Shown: positions 4,693 to 40,215 of the stretch, piece by piece | Layout: every line of letters begins with the position of its first letter | Position numbering within the stretch: the first letter of the stretch is position 1 | NCBI RefSeq assembly: GCF_020055635.1 | Contig: NZ_JAIPUT010000035.1 | Coordinates: 1-45,079, forward strand | Direction: 5' to 3' | DNA from: Marivita sp. | GTDB taxonomy: Bacteria > Pseudomonadota > Alphaproteobacteria > Rhodobacterales > Rhodobacteraceae | DNA length: 45,079 nucleotides | Translations under genes and position numbers: made by a program | The notes under the pieces: model-generated | What the model was told of the DNA's origin: nothing | Seen by the model: the letters and a program-made list of their open reading frames with translations, nothing else | The model's database searches: none

Positions 4693-4769
4693 GCGGTTGT
4701 AGCTCAGTTGGTTAGAGTACCGGCCTGTCACGCCGGGGGTCGCGGGTTCGAGCCCCGTCAACCGCGCCA
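4693..4769 (+). tRNA. tRNA-Asp (GTC), copy 1
   Basis: 77 nt including an encoded CCA. Acceptor arms GCGGTTG and CAACCGC pair perfectly. The anticodon stem CCGGC/GCCGG encloses CTGTCAC with anticodon GTC, and the T arm GCGGG-TTCGAGC-CCCGT is canonical. It is the first of two identical tandem genes. Confidence 0.98.
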
Positions 4770-4798: not shown

Positions 4799-4875
4799 GC
4801 GGTTGTAGCTCAGTTGGTTAGAGTACCGGCCTGTCACGCCGGGGGTCGCGGGTTCGAGCCCCGTCAACCGCGCCA
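4799..4875 (+). tRNA. tRNA-Asp (GTC), copy 2
   Basis: Identical over all 77 nt to the copy at 4693-4769, with a 29 nt spacer. Both are probably processed from one transcript. The 3' end lies 25 nt from the end of the converging hydrolase gene. Confidence 0.98.
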
Positions 4876-8115: not shown

Positions 8116-9339
8116 GTGAGCTATTCAGCCAAACTCGACCAAGCCCTCAACCGTTTGCACGAAGAGGGACGGTACCGGACCTTTATCGATATCGAGCGTC
8201 AGAACGGGCAATTCCCGCACGCGGTATGGCGCAAGCCCGACGGGTCCGAGCAGAACATCACCGTGTGGTGCGGCAACGATTACCTAGGCATGGGTCAGCA
8301 TCCGGCAGTTCTGGCGGCGATGCACGAGGCGCTGGATGCGACCGGCGCAGGATCGGGCGGCACACGCAACATCTCCGGCACGACCGTCTATCACAAGCGG
8401 CTCGAATCAGAGCTGGCGGATCTGCACCAGAAAGAGGCGGCGCTGCTGTTCACCTCCGCCTACATCGCCAATGATGCGACCCTGTCCACGCTGCCGAAAC
8501 TGTTCCCGGGCCTGATCATCTATTCCGACGCGCTCAACCACGCGTCGATGATCGAAGGTGTGCGGCGCAATGGCGGGGCCAAGCGGATTTTCCGTCACAA
8601 CGACATGGATCACCTGCGCGAGCTGCTGGCCGCCGACGATCCCGACGCGCCGAAGCTGATCGCCTTCGAATCGATCTATTCGATGGACGGGGATTTCGGC
8701 CCGATCGAGGCGATCTGCGATCTCGCGGACGAGTTCGACGCGCTGACCTATATCGACGAAGTGCACGCGGTGGGCATGTACGGCCCCCGTGGCGCCGGCG
8801 TGGCCGAGCGGGACGGTCTGATGGACCGCATCGACATCATCAACGGCACACTGGCCAAGGCCTATGGCGTGATGGGCGGCTATATCGCGGCCTCGGCCAA
8901 GATGTGTGACGCGATCCGGTCCTATGCGCCGGGCTTCATCTTCACCACGTCGCTGCCGCCAGCTGTCGCGGCCGGCGCGGCGGCCTCGGTGGCGCATCTC
9001 AAGACCGACCAGGGCCTGCGCGACCAGCACCAGCTTCAGGCGCGTATCCTCAAGATGCGGCTGAAAGGCCTGGGGCTGCCGATCATCGACCATGGCAGCC
9101 ACATCATTCCGGTGATCGTCGGCGATCCGGTTCACACCAAAAAGCTGTCCGACATGATGCTCGACCGGTTCGGCATCTACGTTCAGCCGATCAATTTCCC
9201 GACCGTTCCGCGCGGAACAGAGCGGCTGCGCTTTACGCCGTCGCCGGTGCACGGACCCAGAGAGATTGATACGCTGGTGCAGGCCATGGATGAACTTTGG
9301 GCGCATTGTGCGCTGAATCGCGCCGAACTTAGCGCTTAA
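8116..9339 (+). CDS. hemA: 5-aminolevulinate synthase
   Basis: PLP enzyme condensing glycine and succinyl-CoA to 5-aminolevulinate, the first step of Shemin-pathway tetrapyrrole synthesis. The GTG at 8116 is chosen: GAAGGAG at 8103-8109 sits 6 nt upstream, while the ATG at 8110 directly abuts it. The product is then 407 aa, as in Rhodobacter, and the PLP lysine in NGTLAKAYG falls at K248, the position known from R. capsulatus. Other landmarks are [31 protein letters not shown], the Asp of YIDEVHAVG, and the C-terminal [11 protein letters not shown]. An FNR-type box lies upstream. No other heme gene is adjacent. Confidence 0.97.
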
Positions 9340-11181: not shown

Positions 11182-12309
11182 ATGAGCCTCAATCACATTC
11201 GCCCGTGGCGCAACATCTACCGCCGGAAATCGCGCCAGATCATGGTGGGCAATGTGCCGGTGGGGGGCGACGCGCCGATCACCGTCCAGACCATGACCAA
11301 CACGCTGACACCGGACGTGAAAGCGACCATCGCACAGGTGCAGGCCGCGGCGGATGCGGGCGCCGATATCGTCCGGATCTCGATCCCCGACGAGGACAGC
11401 TCCAAGGCATTGAAGCAGATCGTCCGCGAAAGCCCGGTGCCGATCGTGGCGGACATCCATTTTCACTACAAGCGCGGCATCGAAGCGGCCGAGGCGGGCG
11501 CGGCCTGTCTGCGGATCAACCCCGGAAATATCGGCTCCGAGGCGCGGGTCAGGGAAGTCATCAAGGCGGCGCGCGACCACAATTGTTCGATCCGCATCGG
11601 CGTGAATGCCGGGTCTCTGGAAAAGCACCTGCTGGACAAGTATGGAGAGCCATGTCCCGATGCGATGGTCGAGTCCGGTCTGGATCACATCAAGATCCTG
11701 CAGGACAATGATTTCCACGAGTTCAAGATCAGCTGCAAGGCCTCGGACGTGTTCATGGCCGCAGCCGCATACCAGCAATTGGCCGATGCGACAGACGCGC
11801 CGATCCATCTGGGCATCACCGAGGCGGGCGGGCTTGTCTCCGGAACGATCAAGTCGGCCATCGGTCTGGGCAACCTGCTGTGGATGGGCATTGGCGACAC
11901 GATTCGTGTGTCCTTGTCCGCCGATCCGGTGGAAGAGGTGAAGGTCGGCTACGAGATCCTGAAATCCCTGGGCCTGCGGCATCGCGGCGTGAACATCATC
12001 TCCTGCCCGAGCTGCGCGCGTCAGGGCTTCGACGTGATCAAGACCGTCGAGACTTTGGAAAAGCGGCTCGAGCACATCAAGACGCCGATGAGCCTGTCGA
12101 TCATCGGGTGCGTGGTGAACGGCCCCGGCGAGGCGTTGATGACCGATGTCGGTTTCACCGGCGGCGGCAACGGGTCGGGGATGGTCTATCTTGCGGGCAA
12201 GCAAAGCCACAAGATGTCGAACGAGCAGATGGTCGAACACATCGTCGAAGAGGTCGAAAAGAAGGCGGCCGAGCTCGAGGCGGTCAATGGGCAGGAAGCG
12301 GCGGAGTAG
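11182..12309 (+). CDS. ispG: 4-hydroxy-3-methylbut-2-enyl diphosphate synthase (flavodoxin/ferredoxin)
   Basis: Penultimate enzyme of the MEP isoprenoid pathway, an iron-sulfur protein converting MEcPP to HMBPP. 375 aa, the standard length. The [4Fe-4S] ligands are C275 and C278 (SCPSCARQ), C310 ([10 protein letters not shown]) and E317, each offset by 5 from E. coli C270/C273/C305/E312. The TIM-barrel part starts with the typical [16 protein letters not shown]. The ATG at 11182 has AAGGAGG (11170-11176) correctly spaced. It follows the RodZ-like gene on the same strand; a hairpin array begins 5 nt after the stop. Confidence 0.97.
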
Positions 12310-12313
12310 GGGG

Positions 12314-12408
12314 CAAGCCGCTTCGAAGCGGCTTGGTCCAAGCGCGTTCGCACGCGCTTGACACGCGGTTTGCAAACCGCGTCACACAAGGCGGTTCAAA
12401 CCGCCTTG
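12314..12408. repeat. Array of four tandem non-identical hairpins
   Basis: Four near-perfect palindromes in ~95 nt between the convergent ispG and DsbA genes. H1 12314-12335: arm CAAGCCGCTTC, perfect, no spacer. H2 12339-12360: CAAGCGCGT, loop TCGC. H3 12363-12382: ACGCGGTTTG, perfect. H4 12387-12408: CAAGGCGGTT, loop CA. Start-to-start distances are 25, 24 and 24 nt. Three of four arms begin CAAG and end CTTG, but interiors differ with compensating changes. No T-run follows any of them, so these are not ordinary terminators. Similar arrays occur at 20998-21043 and 40152-40215. Confidence 0.85.
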
Positions 12409-12427
12409 CACGCATATCCCGGGCCGG

Positions 12428-13186
12428 TCAGCGTTCTTGACGGGCGTCGGCGACGATTTCCTGCATGGCCTCAAGCGGCACATATCCCCGGATCAGCTGA
12501 TCGCCCATCACGAAGGACGGCGTGCCGTTGATCTGAAGCGCCTGCGCCAGAGCGCGGGTGTTTGCCAGCTGTTCGGTGACGTCCGGGCTGTCCATCGCGG
12601 CGATCACCGCATCCGCATCAAGGCCAAGCGTGTTGGCCAGGCGCTGCAGAACGGTGTCGTCCAGATCGCCGTTCAGCACGATCAGCGCTTCCTTTGCCGC
12701 CTTGTAAGCCTCGTCCCCGGCCACTTCGCGCACGGCAAGGGCGAACCGCGACGAGATCACCGAGTTTTCGCCTAGGATCGGCAATTCCTTGGCAACGTAG
12801 CGAATGTTGCCATCCAGTTCGAGCAGTTCGGCGACTTCCGGGTGCGCCCGGCGGCAGAAGCCGCAGCGATAGTCGAAGAACTCCACGATGGTCACGTCCC
12901 CTTCGGGATTGCCGCCAACCCAGGAATAGCCGTCATTGAAGATCGCCTCGGCGTTGTTCTCGATCAGGGCGACGTCGCCTTGCGCCTGTTCGGCGGCCTG
13001 CCGGTCTTCCAGGACCTGCACGGCTTCCATGATGACCTGCGGGTTTTCCAGCAGGTAGGCCCGGACCTGTTCCCCGAAGGCGGCGCGGTCGGCGTCCGAC
13101 ATGTCGGACAGATCAAGGTCGGCGGCCGAAACGCCGGAGGCCAGAACGAGGGCGAGGAAGGACGAGGCAAGACGGGTTTTCAACAT
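12428..13186 (-). CDS. DsbA-family periplasmic thiol-disulfide oxidoreductase
   Basis: 252 aa with a Sec signal peptide (MLKTRLASSFLALVLASGVSAA) and a thioredoxin fold carrying the C108-G-F-C111 active site in FFDYRCGFCRRAHPE. The cis-proline loop is NGTPSFVMGD. A helical ~60-residue N-terminal extension (DRAAFGEQVRAYLLENPQVIMEA) is typical of the ScsC/BdbD-like DsbA group. The ATG at 13186 has TTGGAGAACCCC upstream. Its start is 22 nt from the end of the M48 protease gene on the same strand, so the pair probably forms an envelope quality-control operon. Oxidase versus isomerase role is undecided. Confidence 0.9.
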   Translation of the reverse strand: MLKTRLASSFLALVLASGVSAADLDLSDMSDADRAAFGEQVRAYLLENPQVIMEAVQVLEDRQAAEQAQGDVALIENNAEAIFNDGYSWVGGNPEGDVTIVEFFDYRCGFCRRAHPEVAELLELDGNIRYVAKELPILGENSVISSRFALAVREVAGDEAYKAAKEALIVLNGDLDDTVLQRLANTLGLDADAVIAAMDSPDVTEQLANTRALAQALQINGTPSFVMGDQLIRGYVPLEAMQEIVADARQER

Positions 13187-20997: not shown

Positions 20998-21043
20998 GGA
21001 TGTTCCGTCGACGGAACATCCACGATGCGTCGACGCATCGTGG
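20998..21043. repeat. Pair of tandem 24-nt perfect palindromes
   Basis: 20998-21021 (arm GGATGTTCCGTC) and 21020-21043 (arm CCACGATGCGTC) are both perfect 24-nt palindromes with a central GTCGAC. They overlap by 2 nt and start 22 nt apart. They lie between co-directional prfB and the DUF2189 gene with no T-run. The design matches the arrays at 12314-12408 and 40152-40215, but the sequence differs. Confidence 0.85.
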
Positions 21044-40077: not shown

Positions 40078-40151
40078 GGCACGCCCCTTACCAACGCCGG
40101 ACAGAACAGGCCAGCGCCCATCTCTTCTCCGGTTCAGAAATATCCCGGGAG

Positions 40152-40215
40152 TTTGAGGGCAGAGCCCTCAAATCCCTGCGCAGCAGGGATAGGAAAGCCC
40201 TTCCAAGGGCTTTCC
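40152..40215. repeat. Array of three tandem non-identical hairpins
   Basis: H1 40152-40172: TTTGAGGGC, loop AGA. H2 40172-40190: ATCCCTGC, loop GCA. H3 40192-40215: GGAAAGCCCTT, loop CC. All stems are perfect (9, 8 and 11 bp) and start exactly 20 nt apart. They lie between divergent ABC-F and ndk genes, so neither gene can use them as a 3' terminator. Same design as the arrays at 12314-12408 and 20998-21043. Confidence 0.85.

Follow-up and report, generated by a model that had tools for sequence, protein, structure and literature searches.

What kind of element is a row of four different palindromes that fills the space between two genes facing each other? This question is raised by positions 12314–12408 of the window, our term for the whole 45,079-nucleotide stretch of Marivita sp. 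DNA (contig NZ_JAIPUT010000035.1) that was analyzed. The stop-to-stop gap between ispG (GcpE, PF04551; 11182–12309, plus strand), whose stop codon ends 4 nt ahead of the array, and a convergent gene for a DsbA-like thioredoxin (PF01323 and PF18312; 12428–13186, minus strand), whose stop lies 19 nt from it, is occupied by four palindromes. These are an outer palindrome of type H4, CAAGCCGCTT-CG-AAGCGGCTTG (12314–12335; 11-bp arms, no loop, a TTCGAA core), an inner one of type H3, CAAGCGCGT-tcgc-ACGCGCTTG (12339–12360; 9-bp arms around the loop TCGC), an inner one of type H2, ACGCGGTTT-GC-AAACCGCGT (12363–12382; 10-bp arms), and an outer one of type H1, CAAGGCGGTT-ca-AACCGCCTTG (12387–12408; 10-bp arms and a central CA). 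The sequence and a palindrome scan agree with what a first-pass annotation had described, namely four near-perfect palindromes of 20–22 bp that start 25, 24, and 24 nt apart, with CAAG/CTTG borders on the first, second, and fourth. The array is adjoined by ATATCCCGGG at 12414–12423, and its RNA folding gave a z of −4.77.

Searches for known elements at this locus returned little. No terminator-like site was found in window positions 12000–12700, the array had no match in a plasmid collection, and at the gathering score Rfam matched tRNAs alone in the window and nothing in six array loci. The window also carries two tandem tRNA genes of equal model score (4693–4766 and 4799–4872). A CRISPR was rejected since the repeats are not identical to each other and the linkers, about 0–5 nt in full units of four palindromes (quads), take the place of unique spacers of similar size. 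A chance origin was excluded as well. We examined 47,759 bp of intergenic DNA, made up of 212 regions no shorter than 45 bp in 425 kb of genome including the window, and counted 10 arrays and 68 hairpins. Dinucleotide shuffling, a comparison proposed with the initial description, gave no array and at most 12 hairpins in 50 rounds, and 368,751 bp of coding sequence contained 44 hairpins and no array.

The ispG array is one copy of a repeat family, which we call family A, and the clade-specific family that the first-pass annotation had suspected therefore exists. Its unit of about 94 bp consists of four palindromes in the order H1-H2-H3-H4, with nearly all cores TTNNAA, centers about 24, 23–24, and 25 bp apart, and arms AAGGnnTTT (H1), ACGCGRTTT (H2), AAGCGCGTT (H3), and AAGCCnTTT (H4), each followed by its own reverse complement. 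Because each palindrome is its own reverse complement, the orientation of a quad can be read from the order alone, and the window copy, on the minus strand, reads H4-H3-H2-H1 along the plus strand. Exactly four hairpins are present in 84 of 121 arrays. The centers of the two outer palindromes are CG in 46 and 47 of the 48 quads kept for center and orientation counts, those of unreadable order having been excluded, while the inner centers are mixed, as if the ends were recognized.

When the ispG array was compared by BLAST with the 192 contigs (4.94 Mb) of its own genome, G000, 28 matches were obtained at 20 places, itself included. A covariance model, R1, built from 26 quads among which was the window copy, scores that copy as a complete unit with 97.5 bits and finds at least 31 distinct places in the own genome and 50 in genome G057. 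R1 matches (E ≤ 1e-7) occur in all 17 genomes of the genus including the own one, from 61 rows in the latter down to 1 in G008, both strands counted. With a stricter filter, R1 was found in 11 of 120 Rhodobacteraceae genomes (one per genus, again including the own genome) and in none of the 141 other genomes of the class sample. Scanning GTDB contigs for an H3 20-mer gave 46 stretches, of which 41 are assigned to Rhodobacteraceae, 4 are labeled Alphaproteobacteria only, and 1 is labeled Enemella; records of Marivita, Tropicibacter, Mameliella, Maliponia, Maritimibacter, Histidinibacterium, Aestuariivita, and Pararhodobacter are counted here under Rhodobacteraceae, where we take them to belong. 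The exception is an actinobacterial record, Enemella evansiae L083, whose family A array has flanks like those of a Mameliella (L069) and a Maliponia (L089) locus; this array-bearing contig is probably a contaminant. The host group of family A is thus Marivita and scattered other, mainly marine, Rhodobacteraceae. Tandem palindromes as a general trait of the family or class were rejected, since samples from other genera contained few or no arrays: 80-kb samples of G019, G017, and G021 gave 0, 2, and 1, always with cores other than TTNNAA, and 40-kb samples of G033 and G036 gave none at all, four G022 stretches of 1.1–1.5 kb each being left out of the scan. Our search of the open-license PMC literature found nothing on family A, which does not establish its absence from print; the Rhodobacterales RNA motif HRC-8-4, as far as it is described in the portion of PMC8632094 available to us, differs from it.

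Family A has spread as a unit in genome G067. Three regions of about 5 kb there have in common an array of 93–97 nt and a handful of neighboring nucleotides; BLAST aligned 101, 101, and 112 nt, with identities of 97, 96, and 93%, and two of these copies are identical at 93 of 93 compared positions. Since the three share little besides the array, the unit disperses into unrelated sites, a property in common with MITE-like elements, and the copying process that had been proposed for the window arrays does occur. No target-site duplication was seen by eye at the G067 copies. In the relatives G152–G155, where the upstream gene aligns and the contig continues, no such array lies behind the gene; G155 has one unrelated palindrome at the equivalent site, and the corresponding sites are too diverged to reveal a target-site duplication. 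Similar pairs elsewhere can be duplications of larger regions, as with L163 and L166, which have similar flanks. Two five-palindrome arrays of the own genome (L211 and L212) align closely (score 89) except for one end palindrome, and their flanks are related, a pattern that suggests duplication of the region and exchange of an end palindrome.

The annotation's view that structure is kept while sequence changes holds for family A. In the 26 aligned quads, 94.1% of cells are paired, changes on both sides are seen in 20 of 39 pairs, and covariation scores 0.281, compared with 0.091 for shuffled and at most 0.090 for slid alignments; these two controls address covariation rather than pairing perfection, which is biased upward because the quads were picked partly for palindromy. 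At orthologous sites, 2,547 of 3,073 arm pairs are unchanged, 334 changed on both sides, and 192 on one side, while linkers differ at 347 of 719 positions. These counts come from 144 array pairs that are not independent, some genomes being present twice under different names. Pairings of an array with itself or with another array of its genome were dropped, as were those whose flanks agree to 97% or more. There are hairpins that do not differ at all between the five to seven loci of a given site. Unusual arms, such as AAGAGATTT, are found again at the same site in different species, which shows that these arrays are inherited in place. They can also be lost. Scanning the ispG site of 16 congeners (arms of at least 7, loops up to 6), we found that where the own genome has four hairpins, G016 has three and an imperfect one, G005, G010, and G014 have one or two among remnants, G001, G004, and G008 have a single one, and the nine others have none near the stop, some of these showing imperfect stems by eye. 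The array at ispG is therefore dispensable, only G016 keeping three hairpins and an imperfect fourth.

Two further arrays had been reported in the window as instances of the same design. Both are present, but their elements belong to a different ordered set of hairpins, family B, with GTCGAC cores and a GGGGGC/GAGGGC hairpin beside CCCGGGATATTT. Its elements are B1 (GATGCG-TCGA-CGCATC), B2 (GATTTTCCG-TCGA-CGGAAAATC), and B3 (TTGGGGGC-tct-GCCCCCAA), and the order B1-B2-B3 is followed by CTCCCGGGATATTT...GAACC.GAGAAG; all three elements stand together at 8370–8430 of locus L012. The array at 20998–21043, in a co-directional gap between a release-factor gene (PF03462 and PF00472) and a DUF2189 gene, is B2-B1, two perfect 24-bp palindromes with GTCGAC cores. 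The three-hairpin array at 40152–40215, in a divergent gap between an ABC-ATPase gene (PF00005 and PF12848) and ndk (PF00334), is of family B type and is accompanied on the minus strand by CCCGGGATATTT (40138–40149), so that 40138–40215 consists of the motif, a B3-type hairpin, and two further hairpins. CCCGGGATATTT occurs seven times in 425 kb, always in intergenic DNA, against 0.03 expected from base composition. In the window, L012, L027, and L092–L109, it usually has a GGGGGC-type hairpin in front of it and GAACC.GAGA behind. The motif with its surroundings is a second dispersed element.

Where do family A arrays lie? We placed 121 distinct arrays, each with at least two TTNNAA hairpins and with family B, others, and repeated sequences dropped, relative to genes called with a simple codon-usage gene finder; the set came from sequence matches and random stretches, independent of gene context. 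Convergent gaps hold 53, co-directional gaps 64, and divergent gaps 2 (in L214 and L236), the other 2 being at contig edges. The nearest facing stop codon is within 15 nt in 88 of 119 arrays and within 40 nt in 105. Divergent gaps make up 32% of the intergenic bases in the random sample of the own genome (15,401 of 47,759), and against this baseline, taken from that genome alone and applied to all, 2 of 119 is far below expectation (binomial p of about 1e-17). The first-pass annotation had argued from convergent, co-directional, and divergent contexts that simple termination does not explain the arrays, an argument that is not supported, since family A is nearly absent from divergent gaps and the divergent array at 40152 is of family B type. 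Position alone is not special, however. The random sample comprises 28 convergent, 132 co-directional, and 52 divergent gaps. Arrays (family B included) occur in 5, 5, and 1 of these, and any hairpin, found in 12, 29, and 5, shows the same preference, as do stable bacterial stem-loops generally, which according to the part of PMC1590033 that deals with them tend to lie between converging genes and shortly after stop codons. A requirement for orientation is not demonstrated: in co-directional gaps, 20 quads run with transcription and 10 against it (p = 0.10). The flanks of 74 quads are G-rich at −2 to −6 and C-rich at +2 to +7, possibly reflecting a Rho site rich in C, a preferred target, or an outer stem. 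A stem that would close off the whole quad was rejected because flank pairing, for instance 40 of 74 at position 2, is by estimate about what base composition predicts.

We then asked at which level the arms are kept complementary. Functional RNA stems change via G-U pairs, and U-tract terminators of the same genome behave in this way, with 11 G-U, 0 A-C, and 3 other mismatches among 253 pairs of 28 terminators (a control that includes at least one hairpin ending an array, L019, without a mismatch). In arrays, 3,755 of 3,780 arm pairs are Watson-Crick, the rest being 5 G-U, 9 A-C, and 11 others. Distinct states within the genus number 12 G-U, 13 A-C, and 25 others, so that G-U against A-C differs from the terminators over all contexts (12:13 versus 11:0; Fisher p = 0.003). 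With ortholog groups oriented by their genes, and a chance group (L100) that is inside the within-genus counts left out of this split, co-directional sites give 6 G-U, 8 A-C, and 19 others (p = 0.003 against terminators) and convergent sites 7, 3, and 4 (p = 0.09). Relaxed thresholds give 39 G-U, 38 A-C, and 151 others at co-directional and 24, 22, and 45 at convergent sites, and the across-genus comparison 11 G-U, 16 A-C, and 27 others with 19 of 68 switches of A-U/G-C type; these counts probably contain chance sites and are not used as evidence. Of 420 hairpins, 371 have CG or GC as their two central bases, a place at which pairing within an RNA loop is impossible. The lack of a clear G-U excess and the kept CG/GC centers, on mismatch counts that are small, point to arms maintained strand-symmetrically or at the DNA level. 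At convergent sites, where both strands may be transcribed, an RNA function on two strands could yield the same picture.

Intrinsic terminators have a U-tract by definition, directly after the stem. Family A arrays lack one though they lie downstream of stop codons: at least five T in 9 nt are found at 6 of 170 array 3′ ends, as opposed to 10 of 39 single hairpins, and on this and the G-U counts canonical U-tract terminators were rejected. An RNA-level element of another kind, in which a cluster of hairpins without a U-tract terminates transcription or blocks exonucleases and is selected as RNA, is harder to dismiss. It would account for the place of the arrays mostly right behind stops and their near absence from divergent gaps, for a mean folding energy of about −13 kcal/mol per hairpin, and for the convergent groups with their 7 G-U to 3 A-C, and the weak lean of quads with transcription would fit an RNA role. 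The excerpts of PMC8355165 at hand describe comparable clusters, with several hairpins less than 15 nt apart at most 80 nt from stops, often without a U-tract; 105 of 119 arrays, in a scan allowing hairpin gaps up to 16 nt, lie well inside this distance. The same excerpts report no sequence conservation near stops, while family A is conserved in order, cores, and spacing and its copies are dispersed. The scarcity of T-rich ends speaks against an RNA-level element, as does the mode of change. Bidirectional intrinsic terminators of Bacillus cereus, in the part of PMC5381666 that we could consult, are like the arrays in their convergent gaps and compensatory evolution, but the intrinsic terminators of that species evolve largely via G-U (68 G-U intermediates versus 8 A-C, with 79% of switches between A-U and G-C). 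Family A does not: G-U is not in excess in the arrays as a whole or in the co-directional ones, and 12 of 42 within-genus switches are of this type. We regard selection as RNA alone as unlikely, though it deserves serious attention.

A functionless, selfish repeat that persists at 3′ ends since insertions elsewhere are harmful, its palindromes perfect through youth or repair, would explain the patchy distribution, the near-identical G067 copies, and the decay and loss at the ispG site. Template switching, which as presented in part of PMC8794818 both creates and mends perfect stems, is a candidate for the matching of family A arms and would serve this explanation too. In the same vein, the repetitive hairpin-forming elements of mitochondria disperse in intergenic DNA and are confined to related groups (PMC2800124, as seen in part), a likeness by description, these being single or double hairpins. 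A functionless repeat is nevertheless improbable, because at orthologous sites across the genus arms are far better conserved than linkers and some hairpins stay identical in several loci of one site. REP palindromes are known to be moved by RAYT-type Y1 transposases, and a REP/BIME or REPIN family moved in this way would likewise be extragenic, palindromic, multicopy, and at gene 3′ ends. Y1_Tnp is however absent from 13 of 17 genus genomes (present in 4) and from all 10 array-bearing genomes of other genera, and in the own genome two neighboring Y1_Tnp matches (contig C26, 49948–51247, L090), one in a single frame and one split over two frames, have no hairpin array near them. RAYT mobilization was rejected on these absences and the array-free region, and no other enzyme for family A dispersal was found. 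The GTAG/CGTC tags are not enriched either, with 21 in 242 outer array edges against about 26 expected (7 positions × 4 tetramers/256 per edge, outer edges only, even base composition). As characterized in the sections of PMC3733652 open to us, REP, BIME, and REPIN sequences resemble the arrays in being dispersed, multicopy, often grouped, and mostly in convergent or co-directional gaps and rare in divergent ones, but belong to GTAG and CGTC superfamilies. Family A, unlike them, has four different palindromes in fixed order and near-fixed spacing, its cores are TTNNAA, its arms covary between family members, its stems contain almost no G-T pairs, and it has neither an enriched tag nor a RAYT, which makes this reading hardly credible. 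Scarcely better is the idea that the palindromes are a row of operators to which a dimeric protein binds. The TTNNAA cores and regular spacing would suit it, but where an arm position varies its partner changes with it, and a dimer reading half-sites gives unread bases no reason to match.

Since family A is REP-like and hairpin-cluster-like but lacks the marks of REPs (tag and RAYT) and of canonical terminators (U-tract), we file it as a variant of extragenic palindromic repeats. It spreads as a unit in G067, lies mostly behind stop codons, and is inherited in place with complementary arms and drifting linkers. The reading that we prefer, with a probability of about 0.48, is that family A is a RAYT-independent REP-like repeat of Rhodobacteraceae that would act strand-symmetrically as a two-way boundary at gene ends. 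Whichever neighbor is transcribed, the nascent RNA or the DNA would offer as many as four stable stem-loops over some 100 bp, and these may stall RNA polymerase or exonucleases, so that less transcription would enter the neighboring gene. We infer that the arms are kept matched at the DNA level, by selection on two strands and/or by template switching during replication that copies arm onto arm, rather than by selection on one RNA alone. In Escherichia coli, the ribosome represses a terminator placed immediately after a gene (PMC4824070). Hairpins 24–72 bp further on would lie beyond the ribosome from either side, which may explain the repetition within the quad. By analogy with E. coli REPs, which can reduce translation when less than 16 nt from the stop according to extracts of PMC12306157, stop-proximal arrays could reduce it too.

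A bolder version, which we consider doubtful, would make family A an example of mobile palindromic DNA elements that inherit symmetry and order instead of sequence. Four palindromes bounded by near-invariant TTCGAA palindromes would be recognized as folded DNA by some non-RAYT enzyme or by the replication machinery, their arms re-matched by template switching, and the result used by the host as a two-way boundary.

Family A is a 3′-end element without an Rfam entry, and it hints that palindromic repeats may spread by other means than RAYT. With its symmetry kept while the letters change, it is a natural system for testing how palindromic DNA spreads and persists, and dozens of orthologous and paralogous perfect palindromes are available in cultivable genera. 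The U-tract terminators of the same genome are a built-in contrast that can separate RNA-level from DNA-level maintenance of stems, and whether compensatory changes arise stepwise via G-U or in one template-switch event would thereby be testable directly in bacteria.
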